Of a stretch of DNA of 64,000 nucleotides, positions 4,781 through 35,091 are shown one piece after another (the stretch's first letter is position 1; every line of letters begins with the position of its first letter). The stretch is from Lutjanus erythropterus. Taxonomy: Eukaryota; Chordata; Actinopteri; Lutjaniformes; Lutjanidae. The translations under genes and the position numbers were made by a program. The notes under the pieces were generated by a model. The model had not been told where the DNA came from. It ran no database searches and was given only the letters and a program-made list of their open reading frames with translations. The stretch is taken from the NCBI GenBank assembly GCA_020091685.1, contig CM034600.1, positions 4,663,837 to 4,727,836 of the forward strand. Direction: 5' to 3'.

Positions 4781-6040
4781 CTGTGTCATGATTGGCTGTT
4801 GTGAAATCCCCCTGTGCTGTAATTGACTACTGTAAAATCTCCCTGCCCTCTGATTGGCTGTTGTAAAATCCCCCTGTATTGTGATTGACTGTTGGAAGAC
4901 CCCCCTCTACTCTGATTGCTGGGAAATCCCCTTCTGTTGTGATTGGCTGTTGTAAATCCGCCTGTGTTGTGATTGACTTTTGGAAAAAACATCTTTGCTG
5001 TGATTGGCTGTTGGAGAATCCCTGTGCTGTTATAGGCTCTTGTAAATTCGCCCTGTGCAGTGATTTGCTGTTGTAAAATATCCCTATATTGTGATTGGCT
5101 ATTGGAAAATCCCCCTGTGCTGTTATTGGCTGTTGGAAAGTTCCCTGTGCTGTGATTGGCTGTTGGAACATCCCCCTGTGCCATCATTGGCTGTTGGAAA
5201 ATCCCCCTGTGCTGTGATTGGCTATTGGGAAATCTCCGTATATTATGATTGGCTGTTGGAAAATGCCCCTGTGCTGTTATTGGTTGTTGGAAAATCCCCC
5301 TGTGATGTGTTTGGCTGTTGGAAAATCCCCCTATGATGTGATTGGCTGTTGTAAAATCCCCCTGTGCTGTGATTGGTTGTTGGAAAATCCCCTTTATTCT
5401 GATTGGCTGCTGGAAAATCTCCCTGTGATGTGATTGGCTGTTTGAAAATCCCCCAGTGCTGTGATTGGCTGCTGGAAAATCCCCCTGCGACGTGATTGGT
5501 TCTTGGAAAATACCCCTGTGCTGTGATTGGCTGTTGGACAATCCCCCTCTATTCTGATTGGCTGTTGGAAAATCCCCCTGTTATGTGGTTGGCTATTGGA
5601 AAATCTCTCTGTACTCTGATTGGCTGCTGGAAAATCCCCCTGTGACTTGATTAGTTGTTGGAAAATACCCCTGTGCTGTGATTGGCTGTTGGACAATCCC
5701 CCTGCGCTGTGATTGGCTCTTGGATAATGCCCCTTATTCTGATTGGCTGCTGGAAAATCCCACTGTGACGTGATTGGCTGTTGGAAAATGCCCCTGTGAC
5801 GTGATTGGCTGTTGGAAAATGCCCGTGAGCTGTGATTGGCTGTTGGAAAATCCCCCTGTGACGTAATTGGCTGTTGGAAAATGCTCCTGTGTCATGATTG
5901 GCAGTTGGAAAATTTCTTCCATTTTATGATTGGTTGTTGGGAAAAAAAAACAACTGTGTTGTGACTGACTGTTGGAAAATTCCACTGTATTGTGATTGCC
6001 TGTTGTAAAACCCACCTCTTTTGTGATTGGCTCTCATGAA
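4781..6040. repeat. 31-bp-period minisatellite, about 40 units, each with a CCAAT box
   Basis: A tandem array with unit core GATTGGCTGTTGGAAAATCC followed by CCCTGTGCTGT. The distance between successive GATTGGC starts is 31 bp in the well-preserved centre. Units diverge in the ccctgtg(c/a)tgt part and by small indels, while ATTGGCTGTTGGAAAAT is the most constant part. The reverse strand of each unit carries AGCCAATCA, which matches the NF-Y/CCAAT-box consensus RRCCAATSR. Long minus-strand open frames here (up to 251 codons, periodic Asn-Ser-Gln-Ser) arise because the unit lacks stops in some frames. They are not evidence of a protein. Confidence 0.95.
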
Positions 6041-8739
6041 AACGACCTGTACTTTGATTTATTGTATTGATGAGTCAGTATCGATCGATTGATTGAACTT
6101 CAGTTTTCATGAGATGCTTCCTTTATACAGGCCCTTGTACTAAAAACGTATGAATTAATGGAAAACTTAACACTCATAAGAATTTCTCAATTGTAGTGGG
6201 GCATTTCCATCAGAAATAAAGTTAATCCACTGGGCCTTCACTTCACTTGTGTTGATTCTTGTAGCCAACACCAGAGAACCTCTACATCCTGCAACACATT
6301 TTGGATGTTGTATTGGAGTTGGCATTACAAAGAAAAGCAGTTGTTACTGAATGTAACTGTAGTTCTATGTGTTTAACCCTTTACCTCCATGTTATCTCAA
6401 TCTACAAAAACAAGGAGCAACAAAAATAAGAACAGCAAAGGGTAAGGTAGGAAAAGAGAAGATGCAATGCAGTAGAGGGGTTAAAAAAGAAAGGAGGACT
6501 GGAAAAAGAGAGAGAAGGAGGGGGAGCGTTGGGAAATGAGGGTGCAGAACTGATGGGGAGATGGCAGGAGTGGCATTGAGGGAAATGGAGGGAAAGAGGT
6601 GAGTGAAGGTGGGGTACAGATAAGCCTGCAGTTGTATCAGTAATTGTAATCTGCAGGAGCTGACATGGTTCTGCATGTAAAGCTATTAAACTGGCTGTGT
6701 GCTCAAAAGCCAGCTTCCCTCGCTGCACTGTCAGATAGTCGGTGGGTAAGATGAGCTGAGTGAGCAGGCGCACAGATGAGGAGTCCAGTAAATCTCAGTG
6801 CTGAGAAAAGAGCGGACATAAGAGTTGGCTTTTTATCTACAATTATTAGAGAAAATGTTGCTGCAAAATCAGCCAGAATCTAGCACACTTACAGTGGTCT
6901 GTAATTGACGAAAAGTCACATTTTCACATAAGGGATGAGTATGCTATAGCTCACTGAAGCAGTTAATGGGTAATACTGTGTCATCATGCTAAATATATTT
7001 TTAAACTAATGTAAATATGGCTTGGAGAATTTAAAGGAGTCACGGTGTTCCTCACTGGACTAGGACGCACGTTTTATGATTGCAAAATCAGTGTTCTCCG
7101 CAAGTACCATGACTAAACATCTGGATCTGTTCCTTAAGTCTCTAATCCTGGGTTATGCCAGCAACGATTAAGTTTTAAACCTGATGAAATAGTGGTTTAA
7201 CTTTAGATTACGTTGCACTAAACTGCTTAAAATAGCTTAAAAATGGGAAAGATTAAATATAAACCTTTTTAAACCTAAGTTTAGTTTTCACTCTAAATTT
7301 ATATTAAATTTAATTCTGTTGCACCAAAACTCCAATTTAAAATGTGATCCAGTGTTAACTTCAAATTTACATTTGAAGAGGTTTAACTTTTAAAATGACT
7401 GCCTTTTTGAGATGGATTTACCAAATAATGAAGTTCATTGAAGAAAGTTGCAGGATAAACTCAACTCAGTTGAGTTTCATGAGTGTCTTTTTTTCCTTAC
7501 TGTGCTGTTTTTCGTTTTTAATTTTCAATTTTTTGGCCATATTGCTCCATTAATGTGTTGTTCTCAAAGGAGGAGAAAATAGAGCTCTAAGTTAGCCTAC
7601 TTATCTTAGTTATCTAACTTTTTAGCTAGTTTTCTAGCAATACGACATTAGGTCACTTACTTAAACTAGCTAGCAAACAATAGTAGGCAATGTAATGTTT
7701 GTTTTTTACTTTTTATCTTGCTAGGAAATAATTATTGTCAGATGTGTGATTATACTGTTTAATTTAAAAAAAAAAATATTTAACTTGACTTTTTCACTAG
7801 CTTGCAAAAGATGTAATGTTTTTGTATAAGAATAGAGAGCAGCTGAAAGTTAACATTCCCCCTCCCCGTTTATTTATTTCTATATTTTAATTTCAGTAAG
7901 AAAGTGTCTTCATATTGATTAAATGCTACTTTACATCATTTTGGTTTACATCAAGACATTTGCATTCACTGAACAGAAATAAGTTTTTAATTGTGCAGTA
8001 GAGTTCTACTTAATTTTGCATCTGCATTTGCTCCTGTTAAACCTAGTTTTGCTGAATTCTGATTTAAACCAAACTTAGATTAAATTGGTGCAAGACAGTC
8101 TAATTATTTAATTCTCACTGACTGTAATGATTATCTGACTGTCAATTGCACCGAACTAACGCCAACTTAGCCTGATCTTGAACACCAGTCATGAGTAGAT
8201 ATGAAGATGTTTCACATGAACACTGTCAACAAAACACCCTTTCATACTGGAAACTTAATTGTCATTTAGATCAGAGACCTGTCCAACACATGGTCTCAGC
8301 ACTATATCTCCTGGCTAAAAGCAATGTTGGCAGCATCTTATTTTGGTAATGATCGTAAAATCATTATGAATCACGAGCCACTAAAAATACCAACTCAAAT
8401 GGATATAGTTAAATTGCATTATGTTACATTGCAGCTGAATAGATAGGACACTTTGACATGTCACAGTAGAAAAAGACAGGTGTAAATAATCAATAAATGT
8501 TGGCAGAGTTTCAGTTTTTGTACATGCTGACTCACTGTCACTCTTGAATAGAACAGAGCTAAGCTATTTCCTGACATGTGACCGGTGTGTTTTGGCAGTT
8601 GCTGAAATTATTTTGGCTTTTCCTGGTTGTAAAGGCTGCATCACAGTCAAGTGATGTAATTCTCTGAACTTACCCCATTACATTATATCCACATCACTAA
8701 AGATTATTTCTCACAATTTCCATTGTATTAATATTTTAT
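6041..8739. other. Noncoding stretch with weak repeat-like segments
   Basis: No gene is supported. A purine-rich block (about 6470-6600) creates artefactual minus-strand frames. Segments near 7200-7380 and 8030-8100 share 'tttaaacctaagttta' / 'ttgcacc' vocabulary in opposite orientation, which could be the decayed ends of a MITE, but the boundaries cannot be fixed. Confidence 0.4.
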
Positions 8740-31217: not shown

Positions 31218-31221
31218 TTAA
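31218..31221. repeat. Left TTAA target-site duplication
   Basis: TTAA immediately outside the left inverted repeat, matched by TTAA at 35088-35091. With the adjoining bases the flanks read acTTAA and TTAAgt, so the symmetry could extend two bases further. Confidence 0.8.
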
Positions 31222-31241
31222 AGAGCATATTGCAGGTTATA
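31222..31241 (+). repeat. Left terminal inverted repeat
   Basis: Reads AGAGCATATTGCAGGTTATA and pairs with 35068-35087 in inverted orientation with two mismatches, both T/G. Confidence 0.88.
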
Positions 31242-31395
31242 CTTTTTTACACATGTATATGTAATCTTGTCCAAAAATTACCATTTTAAAAGTTAAGCAA
31301 TGATTTACAATGATTTTCAGCCCACAAGGGTGCAAATTTAACCGAAAAAGTGACTGTTTGGAGCAAAGCGAATATAACCGCTCTTTTTTTCAAGA

Positions 31396-31420
31396 TCGCG
31401 TCATATTACGTCACGTGAGG
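31396..31420 (+). promoter_or_regulatory. Candidate promoter element of the THAP gene: TTACGTCACGTG
   Basis: TTACGTCA (31406-31413) overlaps CACGTG (31412-31417), a CRE-like site fused to an E-box, about 120 bp upstream of the THAP start codon. No TATA box is obvious between it and the ATG. A TTACGTCA motif also lies just upstream of the other gene of the element (34918-34925), which supports a real promoter role. The function is inferred. Confidence 0.45.
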
Positions 31421-31532
31421 GAGTTATAAGCTAGCCGCTGCAATAGTTTAGTGTGGCGAGTAGGTAGTTATAAGTCAGAGCGGTCGTGTTATAGAGAGTC
31501 AGTGTGTTTTCAGTAGTTTATCTTGGTTTATC

Positions 31533-32831
31533 ATGGTGAATTACTGCGTGTGTGGAGGTTGCACAAACTCCAGCCTGTCAGGACATCGGGTCCAACGATT
31601 TCCGAACAGTAAAAAAGAGCGGAGCTGTCTTCCGTGCCTGGGTGCGTTTTGTGCAGCTGAAGAGACGGGACTTCACCGCCGCGTCAGCTACGAAAAACGC
31701 GGTCGTGTGTGGCACTCACTTCAGACTGGAGGATTATCATTCCAGCGATTTGATGGAGTTCAACATGGGATGCCGAAGCAAGAACCAGGTGCGACTTAGA
31801 CCTGGTGCGGTTCCTTCGGTGCACCCGCTTTCATCAGGACCGCTGTCAGCAGCATCTTGGGGTCTTGCTGCCGGCGGGAGACACGGACATGGATCGGACA
31901 GAGACTCAGCTCGAAGAAAACGTGAGCTGTGCACTGTAAGTATTATTTTCTAACAATTCATAATTAACAACTTAGTTAACATAATGATTTCAGTTATGAG
32001 AAGCAACGGGATATGTTTAGGTTGTTGTAGTAGAGCATTAGCTTGTAACCCCCCAAGCTAATAAGGTAGAAGTGGAAAGCGCTAGCTAACGTTGCTAGCG
32101 CTAGCAACGTTAGCTAGCGCTGGCAACTTTTTTTTGTAAAAACCTATCTTCTGAAAAGGCTCTCGGTTTGCTAATAACATAACTGTCAAGTTTGGTTAGA
32201 GCGCAGAGATGTTGTTTGCACAGTAAATATTTTGATAATATAACGTGTGTATGTTTGTAAGGACTTGGGAGACATTAGCAGTGGTGAAAAGGGAGCTACA
32301 GCCAGGGCAGCAGCACAAATTGACACAGAGCAAGAGGATTTTCCTCCACTGGCTCCTCAGTCATCTGTGCTTCACTGTGGCTCACAATGCAACCTCAGAC
32401 CTTCTCATCGTTCATCAGGTAGTGTAACATCACTCGTATACAGAATTAATTGTATATGCCACAGATATGTTTATAGAATATTAGAGAGAAAATAATTAGA
32501 TAAATCTTTCTGTATGATGCAGGTCAGAACACATTCTATGAAAGGGCTATTGTATGGGATTGCATATTGGATGGGGTATATTTTATAAGTCAATAACAGT
32601 GGAAGTGAATGTGATCTAAAATTATGTTTTCTTCCCCCAGAATATGCTTCAGCCCTCATGGAGTCTCTGAGAGTGGAATACTCCAGGTCACCACAGGTTC
32701 TGCGAGAGCACAGTTCAGTCTTGTCCTCCTCTGCACCTGCTCCCCTTTCCAGATCCCTCCAGAAGATGAGCAAGGATGAGGCTGTGGGGGCATACCTTGC
32801 ACAACATTCCCGATTTAACACGGGTCATTAA
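31533..32831 (+). pseudogene. THAP zinc-finger protein gene, three exons, one-base frameshift in exon 1
   Basis: Exon 1 (31533-31935) starts MVNYCVCGGCTNSS, giving the first two zinc ligands (C5, C10). After an A6 run at 31611-31616 the frame shifts by one. The next frame continues with AVFRAWVRFVQLKRRDF, then AVVCGTHF (third Cys and His ligand) and ends the domain with an AVPTIF-like AVPSVHP. Together this is a complete C2CH THAP DNA-binding domain. Donor ACT|gtaagt joins phase 0 to exon 2 (32262-32418, DLGDISSGEKG..., acidic, EQEDFPPLAP), and TCAG|gtagtg joins phase 1 to exon 3 (32641-32831, acceptor cttcccccag), ending SRFNTGH and TAA. The three exons would total 750 nt (249 residues) if the A run were one shorter. 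No catalytic domain follows the THAP domain. The shift may be a real mutation, a polymorphism or a homopolymer sequencing error. A polyadenylation signal lies at 33256. Confidence 0.85.
32079..32120. repeat. 42-bp perfect palindrome in the first THAP intron
   Basis: The sequence equals its own reverse complement over 42 bases, centred at 32099/32100. Each arm contains AACGTT flanked by GCTAGC hexamers. It can form a cruciform or an RNA hairpin with no loop. It lies in the intron 31936-32261. Confidence 0.9.
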
Positions 32832-33255
32832 TACGATACCTGCACAGAGGCCTATCACACTCAAAGTACACACACCTTGTGATATTCTCTAAATTTTGAT
32901 ATCGATCCAGTTGCACGTGTTTTATAAATAACATTTATAATTGAGGATTGAGACAACACTAGTTGAAAGTTTGCACAGTTGAGTGCTCTCTATTTTTACA
33001 TGGGTCAGATGGCATATTTTTCTTTTAATATATTTACATTTGGCACATCTGCATATATATTTTAACAGTTGCAATATTGGGTTAGTTTGGTTTTCACACT
33101 TGATTTATATATGCTGTACCGAATGTGCCTAATTCTCTTCACTTTAATTCATGAAAATACATAAGTAATTATTTATGAAGGACATGTTTATTATCAGTCT
33201 TAGGCTATGTACAGCACTTTGTTTTCAGCTGTGGTTGTTTTTAAAGTGCTTTATA

Positions 33256-33261
33256 AATAAA
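33256..33261 (+). terminator. AATAAA polyadenylation signal for the THAP gene
   Basis: AATAAA in 'gctttataaataaagttgag', 425 bp after the THAP stop codon and before the 3' end of the opposing gene. A second AATAAA (gacaataaaagtc) at about 33733 is also possible but lies within the opposing transcription unit. Confidence 0.45.
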
Positions 33262-33380
33262 GTTGAGTTGAGTTGAGTACTGTTGCTTGCAGGCCTAACC
33301 ATAAATTCAGCTCTGCTTGTTATATAAATGTTCTACTCTAACATATTTTCTTACAGAGACACTTTTAGATTGTGATTTGT

Positions 33381-33386
33381 TTTTAT
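33381..33386 (-). terminator. AATAAA overlapping the stop codon of the P2X7-ballast gene
   Basis: On the minus strand the last codons read GAA TAA AAA, so AATAAA overlaps the terminator codon. It could serve as the polyadenylation signal, giving an almost absent 3' UTR. Confidence 0.3.
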
Positions 33387-34879
33387 TCATTGTCACCCAA
33401 ATGAGGCCATTCAAAACCTTTATAAACCCCTCCTTCCTCTGGAAATTGCTGTCTAATGGCAGACACAACACAAGCTGGTTTGGGCTTTCTGATGTGCCTG
33501 CCCAGAATGCCATAGGCCCAGCGGACAATCTGCCTGTATGCAGTGTAGCGGTATTGCCTGGAAATAGGGACAAAATATCAGTATTAGTCATATACTAATG
33601 GTATGAAAAAGTGTGACACAGGTAATCATATGTTTGCACTTTATATTGTATATGTTTAGATTTTATGTATTTGTACTACTGTGCTGAGCCATATGTAATG
33701 GGATTTTGTTCTACATTTTTGTGTACTCAATGACAATAAAAGTCTGTCTAAGTTACTGTCTACCTAAATATTGGCCACTTTAACTTATTAGCTGTTTACA
33801 GTCACTGGCTAATTATGATAACCTGTACAATCCAATTCAATGCTATACAGCAGCTCGGCTGTACATTCTACATTTATTAATTTTATATATGTTCAGTGTA
33901 TGTTAACTTTGCAGAGAAGGTGATAATTCTACTTTATTACTGAGGCTGTACTAAATGATGGTGGTGTATTAGACTGCCTTATATTGACAGTGTGTTCCTA
34001 TTATTTTGCCCTTATCATATGATAATAGAGTGAACCAAATATTAAGAACACCTTTCAACATACTGTACCCTTATACACCACCACCATCCACTACAATCTC
34101 AGTAATAAACATACAGTAGGAATAAGTTAAAAAACTAAGAATAATAAATTATTTGTACCCTAAACATACTCATGTGTGTTGGCCTAGAGAGGTCCATGCT
34201 CCTGCCTGAAGTGCATGTAGGCTATCTGCAGCACGTATGGGTTGAGACAGCATGCCTCGAACCCTGGGTGCTGTGTGACACACTGCACTTCCAGCCTGGG
34301 GGTGACGCTGTCCACTAACGCCCAGTAGGCATCTACCTCCCTGCAGCACATACTCTCCTCAGCTGTGGTCATGGCCTCGCATTTCCCGCACAAGCACCTA
34401 TCAAACAAAAGGTTTATCAGGGAAATGCGCTCTCTCTCTTTCTTTCTCTCTCTCTCTCTCTCCCTGTAATGGTAAAGCGATATAGCACGTAGTATGGACA
34501 GATGACGACAATGAGACAGGAGCTTAGTAGTTTATGGTAAGTATCAATACTGCTGCTGGTATTAGATGATCAATACTATTTTTTTGCCGGATTCATGATA
34601 GTATTCTGAACGATATTGTGACGTGAGCACAGTATTATTGTCCTCAGCTAACGTGTATAAGCTAGCACCGGTCTCTCACCAGGACACCTGCCCTACTCTC
34701 CACTGATTCTCCTGACACCACAGCTCAATCTCCCTCCTTTGGCCAGTCACTCTCCCCCTGGTCTCTCCCTGCTCTCTGGGACGCACAACAGGCTCATAAT
34801 TATAGGGCTGTGGCCCGTCATATGAGTAGTTATGAACGTTAAAAGTCTCCTCCGTGTCGGAATTGTGATCGCGATCCAT
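33383..34879 (-). pseudogene. Free-standing P2X7-receptor ballast-domain protein, three exons, with an in-frame stop
   Basis: Exon 1 (34879-34680) starts MDRDHNSDTEETFNV, includes SYDGPQPYNYEP and ends ENQWRVGQVS plus two bases. Donor CTG|gtgaga. Exon 2 (34397-34170, acceptor tttgatag) completes a Trp and continues CLCGKCEAMTTAEESMCC...VQCVTQHPGFEACCLN. Exon 3 (33557-33383, acceptor ctatttccag) encodes QYRYTAYRQIVRWAYGILG..., PACVVSAIRQQFP, GVYKGFEWP and a stop. CxCGxC, CC, C-V-T, AYR, P-x-C, IR-x-x-FP and G-x-Y-x-GF follow the order of the zinc- and guanine-nucleotide-binding cytoplasmic ballast of P2X7. The channel part is absent. All phases agree, giving 603 nt in total, but a TAG (34184-34186) interrupts exon 2 five codons before its donor (GA|gtatgt). 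The product would then stop at QEHGPL and lose exon 3, unless another donor is used. Stand-alone proteins of this type are known in fish genomes. The start at 34879 was preferred over 34936 because a promoter-like motif lies between them. Confidence 0.85.
34428..34463. repeat. (TC)n microsatellite in an intron of the P2X7-ballast gene
   Basis: About 36 bp of mostly TC/CT dinucleotides. On the minus strand this is a purine-rich GA tract 31 nt upstream of exon 2, that is, on the acceptor side. Confidence 0.85.
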
Positions 34880-34917
34880 CGTTTTCCTATTGTTCAAGTA
34901 GACCGGTCTCCCTCCCG

Positions 34918-34932
34918 TTACGTCACTTCCGG
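34918..34932 (-). promoter_or_regulatory. ETS-CRE composite site upstream of the P2X7-ballast gene
   Basis: On the minus strand the sequence reads CCGGAAGTGACGTAA: an ETS core (CCGGAAGT) overlapping a CRE (TGACGTAA), 39-53 bp upstream of the preferred ATG at 34879. This composite is typical of TATA-less vertebrate housekeeping promoters. It is the counterpart of the TTACGTCA motif near the left end of the element. Confidence 0.5.
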
Positions 34933-35067
34933 TCAAGCATTTTCAGATGCGGAAGTAAAAACTTATCAATAAATGACCCCCAAAACCTAAAAAATGTATG
35001 TATAAGTATATTTTTAATAAAAAACGAACTCCTACATTATTTTTCTAAACTTTGGTTAAAAGTGGGC

Positions 35068-35087
35068 TCTAACCTGCAATCTGCTCT
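35068..35087 (-). repeat. Right terminal inverted repeat
   Basis: Reverse complement reads AGAGCAGATTGCAGGTTAGA, matching the left repeat at 18 of 20 bases, followed directly by TTAA. Confidence 0.88.
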
Positions 35088-35091
35088 TTAA
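35088..35091. repeat. Right TTAA target-site duplication
   Basis: Direct copy of the TTAA at 31218-31221. Confidence 0.8.

Follow-up and report, generated by a model that had tools for sequence, protein, structure and literature searches.

The 64,000-nt window analysed here, that is, the whole stretch of DNA at contig C10:4663837-4727836 (G000:C10) of a 937.6-Mb assembly, contains at positions 31218-35091 a 3.87-kb TTAA-flanked element, one of ten near-identical copies in the genome. With a probability that we put at about 95%, it is a young non-autonomous Kolobok transposon of the Kol0/KolX type, namely a deletion derivative of a parent of about 6.6 kb, mobilised in trans and carrying the P2X7-like gene KolX as a decaying passenger. 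That P2X7 and Kolobok are linked, the central point, was already published in 2022 (Kojima and Bao, PMC9587614); what is added here is the empty-site proof, the formative deletion, a natural test on KolX in cis, and the count of ballast-domain loci in one genome. Copies and loci are named by contig (C4, C19 etc.) or by L number, L001 being the window copy.

Boundaries, termini and copies of the element

Inside the TTAA the element ends with AGAGCATATTGCAGGTTATA and AGAGCAGATTGCAGGTTAGA, which, as read from the letters, agree as inverted repeats at 18 of 20 positions, and the repeat search of the window gave terminal arms of 24 nt with 96% identity. The variable end position is T at the left end and G at the right end in all 14 end pairs, those of C6 and C153 being counted apart. 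The termini are AG...CT in the ten copies and in the C19, C6 and C4:21.45-Mb relatives, in agreement with the 5'-RR...YY-3' rule that distinguishes Kolobok from piggyBac (PMC9587614), and all of these also show the TTAA target-site duplication of Kolobok. The initial annotation, made from the letters of the window, had described 20-bp inverted ends (18/20) with TTAA outside both and had taken the element for a Kolobok-type transposon; its coordinates and ends proved exact on rereading, and the type was borne out by the AG...CT termini, the TTAA, the THAP exon and the DDE exons of relatives.

A search of the genome with the element, in which the best 40 of 296 candidates were scored, resulted in ten near-full-length copies with 99-100% identity as well as longer or partial relatives, so that further copies, the lack of which would have spoken against a transposon according to the initial annotation, do exist. 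The 45 pairwise copy comparisons gave 0-15 substitutions over about 3,870 columns (mean 0.295%), L004 and L006 differing by indels only with 0 substitutions. Each of the ten copies is bounded by TTAA and identical ends, their flanks differ, and no flank shared among copies or relatives was detected by blastn (500 + 500 bp of flank, E 1e-8, low-complexity filter on).

When up to two mismatches were allowed, 45 matches to the end pattern were found genome-wide (30 exact, two with one mismatch and 13 with two), whereas the reversed pattern used as a control had 0, so that the ends are not due to chance. Those with at most one mismatch number 32 and consist of the 20 ends of the ten copies, the pairs of C19, C6, C153 and C4:21.45 Mb, and four single ends at C1:48.89, C4:39.78, C6:21.77 and C20:29.75 Mb. 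Of the 13 two-mismatch cousin ends, two (L046 and L047) were each followed over 5 kb, and neither a partner end nor a recognised transposase was seen there; part of L047 resembles what we take to be a host gene.

The relatives at C6:39049-43380 and C153:16285-20616, located close to the end of a chromosome and on a small contig, respectively, carry the same copy with a constant offset and equal scores and are probably an assembly duplicate of one locus. The C4:21.45-Mb relative (L016:714-6796) is a short derivative with about 210 bp of each window-element end and about 5.7 kb of other sequence inside, which resembles pieces presumably belonging to LINE and hAT elements.

Empty target sites

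The empty-site evidence covers one of the ten copies, L004. Its flanks were joined by one TTAA into a 64-base query, 40 of 85 candidates were scored, and all 40 scored places matched contiguously across the join with 90-97% identity; at the four places where the letters were read there is a single TTAA and no element (4/4). The target of L004 was therefore one copy of an interspersed repeat, in which the TTAA was duplicated on insertion, and the empty-site check suggested in the initial annotation has thus yielded unoccupied relatives of this site with a single TTAA.

Remnants of the transposase gene and the internal deletion

The plus strand of the element possesses a THAP domain (PF05485), found by Pfam with E 2.6e-7 on the downstream frame of the window copy and with E 3.1e-8 on the C20 relative; this domain is located at the transposase N-terminus in Xenopus Kolobok (PMC6004289). 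All ten copies carry a 1-nt frameshift in the A-run at 31611-31616 of this exon, while the C19, C6 and C20 relatives are in frame at the A-run, each being damaged elsewhere in the same exon.

The alignments of the relatives break at element base 1368, corresponding to window position 32585, with C19, C20 and C6 matching up to this point and C4, C1 and C20 matching from there. About 2.7 kb is missing here, comprising 279 bp seen in C19 and about 2.4 kb in C4, the DDE-bearing relative, which has 98.1% identity over the right 2.5 kb of the element. Reading by eye showed the DDE motifs SGDCR, TDRN and FFDIWH in C4 and C19, along with a stretch rich in cysteine and histidine and, further on, a SLEAFHS segment. 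This corresponds to a DDD/E transposase with the C/DxxH motif and, before the last E, a Cys/His-rich stretch (zinc finger), which is the Kolobok arrangement described in PMC9587614; all of this is deleted from the window copy. The stretch SDSPGHCAKYGTYSL is unbroken in C4 only and shifted in C19, and no Pfam model matches the DDE segment at E 1. A comparison of C4 with C19 over seven pieces of the transposase exons gave 12 synonymous and 8 nonsynonymous changes, and other deletions of the same gene occur in C6 and C20.

Judging from these alignments, the THAP exon is the N-terminus, and the exon at 32641-32831 the C-terminus, of one predicted transposase gene with its middle exons deleted. Neither the window copy nor its nine sisters possess an intact transposase between their own ends, the DDE exons being absent and the THAP exon shifted; since the frameshift is shared by 10/10 copies, the ten-copy family goes back to one founder unable to make transposase. 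In the initial annotation the element was described as carrying two convergent genes, THAP and P2X7-ballast, as cargo, with either a hidden transposase or an autonomous relative to be expected. Pfam does place the two domains on opposite strands, but both genes are broken in the window copy, and what was called a THAP gene is instead the first and last part of the transposase gene. A transposase hidden within the 3.87-kb copy was rejected, the exons being deleted at one junction, and longer DDE-bearing relatives do exist, but none of them is a complete source.

The KolX gene and its relation to P2X7

The P2X7-like gene of the element is KolX, as judged from its predicted product. It consists of three exons, the donors of which are GT and the acceptors AG in 7/10 copies, and codes for 200 residues where intact. 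The Pfam family P2RX7_C (PF20478) matches the minus strand of the window, over the joined pieces of exons 2 and 3, with E 1.1e-10 and the spliced KolX of L002 with E 1.9e-14, the latter thus having the ballast-like character of KolX in Kol0 elements. The spliced L002 product also matches P2X7 chains from the PDB with E 2.9e-6, being aligned to P2X7 residues 452-595, and the WCxCGxC motif is retained. An imperfect inverted repeat of 58 nt (76%) is located at window positions 33933-33990 and 34052-34109, within the intron between exons 2 and 3.

According to PMC9587614, KolX is a standard component of Kol0 elements and is clearly similar to the P2X7 C-terminus in that lineage, P2X7 arose by fusion of a P2X4-like gene and KolX, and nanor probably represents a KolX that was domesticated. 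The P2X7 ballast domain is thus indeed encoded by a gene within the element, as initially annotated, but it is not the unexpected component that it was taken for. Among the matches listed in the literature search, judged by titles and abstract starts, no second paper joining P2X7 or its ballast with Kolobok transposons was found beyond PMC9587614. Free-standing ballast proteins were found by Rump et al. (PMC7016195), the term transpos- occurring 0 times in that text.

Table 1 Features of the element in the window
Feature	Position	Strand	Basis
Left TTAA target-site copy	31218..31221	.	TTAA at both sides of 10/10 copies with unrelated flanks
Left terminal inverted repeat, AGAGCATATTGCAGGTTA	31222..31239	+	18 nt, 17/18 against the right end; 18/20 if extended
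Transposase exon 1, THAP domain	31533..31935	+	Pfam THAP; exon end inferred from GTAAGT donor
Probable second transposase exon	32262..32418	+	Splice-site consensus only
Internal deletion junction	32585	+	1-bp microhomology; alignment breaks of relatives
Last transposase exon (C-terminus), still open	32641..32831	+	C4 counterpart differs from L002 by one synonymous change
KolX exon 3, C-terminal ballast part	33383..33557	-	PF20478
KolX exon 2, Cys-rich ballast part	34170..34397	-	Premature TAG in window copy only
KolX exon 1 with start codon	34680..34879	-	Spliced L002 product aligns with P2X7
Right terminal inverted repeat, AGAGCAGATTGCAGGTTA on minus strand	35070..35087	-	Letters; repeat search; genome end-pattern search
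Right TTAA target-site copy	35088..35091	.	Letters; TTAA at both sides of 10/10 copies

Elsewhere in the window, positions 4789-6032 are occupied by a minisatellite with a 31-bp unit in about 40 copies, the minus-strand open frames of which (264 and 165 amino acids) may mislead gene finders.

State of KolX in the ten copies

The frame and splice sites of KolX are intact in three of the ten copies (L002, L005 and L008), and the gene is broken in the remaining seven: by a stop in the window copy (34186-34184, Q to stop, with Q in the other nine copies) and in L019, by a change of the second donor from GT to AT in L003, L004 and L006, and by a 2-nt deletion in L007 and L018. The majority state across the ten copies is an intact frame. 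Among the young copies there are ten KolX substitutions, including seven missense, two nonsense and one synonymous, with a neutral expectation of 71/5/24%, and their density (10 per 603 coding bases) compares with 35 per 3,271 bases elsewhere. The KolX of L002 differs from that of C19 by 9 synonymous and 11 nonsynonymous changes on 121 and 473 sites (Fisher p 0.010), and from that of C4 by 4 and 5 on 122 and 472 sites (p 0.09); KolX was therefore probably constrained in the parent lineage.

At 34444, beside a CT repeat, L003, L004 and L006 have a state that occurs in none of the other copies, and at 31344, 31485 and 32194 their states recur in L019 alone. As the three have a common broken donor at three loci, these insertions seem to go back to one allele in which KolX was already dead, and this natural test suggests that KolX is dispensable in cis for movement. 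L007 and L018 share, in addition to the 2-nt deletion, an extra T at 32127, yet L007 shares two other states with L008.

Search for an autonomous source

The genome ends that have one mismatch or none were found to include no intact autonomous source. Of the other paired ends, only those of C19 enclose DDE exons, which are frameshifted and interrupted by about 4.5 kb carrying open reading frames (ORFs) that we take to be Gypsy-like, and the C4 relative possesses neither the left end nor the THAP exon. When 2,130 bp around the C4 DDE exons were used for a DNA search (best 40 of 736 candidates scored), only C4 had the whole region, C19 had a large part of it, and C1, C20 and C6/C153 had pieces; there was also a match of 75% on C15, and one stretch of about 100 bp gave many short matches. 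One transposase exon searched as protein gave six matches, on C4, C19, C6, C153 and C20 and, with 29%, on C1. No better source copy came from this DNA search, within the best 40 candidates scored, or from the one-exon protein search. The C15 match (L031, C15:34044059-34044494) is a more distant transposase relative, with 75% DNA identity to the DDE region and 52-54% protein identity to two exon pieces, on a contig that has no PF20478 match.

Other ballast-domain loci and a second TTAA family

The PF20478 profile search of the genome (80/80 candidates scored) resulted in 46 matches. Two of them, with 224.7 and 39.8 bits and one in-frame stop reported in each stretch, are located at C9:12.78 Mb, which by score is the putative host P2X7 locus, the best score outside it being 85.7 bits. 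Another 14 belong to the window family: nine of the ten young copies (L019 having no PF20478 match), C4, C19, C1, C6 and C153, of which C6 and C153 are perhaps one locus.

Six further loci were read, including the three best-scoring ones (L043-L045) and three partial matches (L048-L050), and no convincing match to a transposase of the window-family kind was found beside them. L048:3018-7451 and L049:3233-7688 share a TTAA-bounded repeat of about 4.4 kb (97.7%) with the ends AGGAGAAGTGTGTGA and AGGACCAGTGTG, and a large internal stretch is deleted from their KolX-like ORF. Of this second family, L050 shows the left end (end at 7229) and L043 the right end with one change in the TTAA, L045 is homologous to it inside only and L044 does not match, so five of the six loci belong to the second family, which is filed under Kolobok by its target and termini alone. 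No recognised transposase ORF was found among the members read.

The left end of the second family has 422 genome matches with up to two mismatches compared to one in the control. At least 11 PF20478 matches, those of L048-L050 included, lie on the strand of such an end and no more than 3 kb downstream of it, the chance expectation being 0.005 per 100 ends; this is a lower bound, since 24 of 100 listed ends (of 422), picked after viewing the list, were considered. Together with L043 and L045, 27 of the 44 PF20478 matches outside the putative P2X7 locus (14 + 11 + 2) are located in two TTAA-ended families, the remaining 17, L044 among them, being unassigned. The proposal in the initial annotation that many free-standing P2X7-like loci come from transposons is thus supported in this genome.

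L044 contains a KolX-like ORF of another kind (172 amino acids, L044:4097-4612, minus strand), about 3.6 kb from a Transposase_21-like ORF (L044:121-537, minus strand) and near a C2H2-like ORF. The Transposase_21 match is weak (E 0.028, below the cut-off), and L044 is a possible case of a ballast gene in a non-Kolobok element.

Origin of the element and alternative interpretations

The sequence of events that we propose would start with a parent of about 6.6 kb possessing a DDE transposase and KolX, from which one internal deletion would have removed the DDE exons and left the THAP exon, the last transposase exon and KolX. Kolobok elements move by cut-and-paste. The derivative inserts into TTAA, as shown by the target copies and the empty sites of one copy, and would be mobilised in trans by a transposase made elsewhere, since its own cannot be made; its KolX, a homologue of the P2X7 cytoplasmic ballast, would be a decaying passenger that the copies no longer need in cis.

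In the Kol0 lineage (Kolobok-1_XT type, with a DDE transposase and KolX) the same TTAA, AG/CT termini, N-terminal THAP and KolX with a ballast domain are found, but the window element has no DDE exons, its THAP exon is frameshifted and it is unable to move itself. Classical non-autonomous Kolobok elements of Xenopus are short. T2-MITE and other such elements are likewise non-autonomous, with TTAA, AG-starting ends and presumed mobilisation in trans, and the Xenopus A6 end as printed also begins AGAGCA (PMC6004289); the window derivative differs in its 3.87-kb length and in the whole accessory gene still present. With the P2X7 ballast and nanor-like proteins (PMC7016195) it has in common the alignment of KolX to P2X7 residues 452-595, but KolX has no channel part, is located inside a transposon and is distinct from the putative host P2X7 locus.

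It could instead be supposed that this is an active derivative which keeps KolX, and perhaps the THAP fragment, because they help or regulate transposition, as in the case of the repressor-encoding deletion derivative of the P element. The position of KolX outside the deletion, the prevalence of its intact frame and the second TTAA family, which has KolX and no recognised transposase, would fit this suggestion; however, the THAP frame is shifted in 10/10 copies, the changes in young KolX look neutral, 7/10 genes are broken, the subclade with dead KolX has spread and the second-family KolX of L048/L049 itself has lost a large internal stretch, and we consider retention for such a function improbable. 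Identity as a piggyBac-type element, which would also target TTAA, was rejected on termini and transposase and has next to no chance of being correct. A few piggyBac families do carry a protein resembling the KolX C-terminus, but these versions lack most of the seven cysteines (PMC9587614), whereas WCxCGxC is kept here; moreover, the AG/CT termini follow the RR/YY rule of Kolobok, a THAP exon is present, and the longer relatives show DIWH (C/DxxH) and, ahead of the last E, a stretch rich in Cys and His. The two spliced, convergent genes that the ends enclose might also be read as a host THAP gene and a P2X7-like gene captured by a TTAA transposon. This was rejected as well and appears exceedingly improbable: in the longer relatives the two genes occur together with DDE exons, as in C19, where the THAP exon, DDE exons and KolX lie between the same ends, KolX is standard in Kol0 elements (PMC9587614), and the putative host P2X7 locus is separate, with 224.7 bits against at most 85.7 elsewhere.

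Some points count against the preferred explanation of a trans-mobilised Kolobok derivative with a decaying KolX. The element is assigned to the superfamily by motifs, termini, target and THAP, and Pfam is blind to the DDE segment. No complete autonomous copy was found, so no mobilising transposase was pinpointed. The copy lineages are clean for L003/L004/L006 and contradictory for L007/L018, and nothing was drawn from the latter. Compared with damaged relatives (gapped, partial or with a stop), the synonymous/nonsynonymous KolX counts are 3/5 for C1, 5/4 for C6 and 1/3 for C20; the contrast between young copies and parent is non-significant alone (p 0.10); and KolX may be needed in trans. Since parent-lineage KolX changed more at synonymous than at nonsynonymous sites, it is our guess, held at somewhat below even odds, that in autonomous elements it would be a zinc-binding accessory or regulatory factor acting in trans with the transposase.

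Significance

The two TTAA families with different ends, one with ten young copies of 3.87 kb and the other more diverged and about 4.4 kb long, give rise to a broader and rather more doubtful suggestion, namely that transposase-less KolX-bearing Kolobok elements may be a recurrent class which scatters ballast-domain exons, with KolX outliving the transposase as a reservoir for fusions of the P2X7 kind and the natural knockouts showing it to be dispensable in cis. For annotators, caution is advised, as gene models named 'P2X7-like', and some of those named 'THAP', are genes of transposons. The element offers a clean and recent example in favour of what was proposed in 2022, namely that the ballast domain of P2X7 is a transposon protein, and with ten young copies in which KolX is intact or naturally broken, the role of KolX in transposition becomes directly testable.

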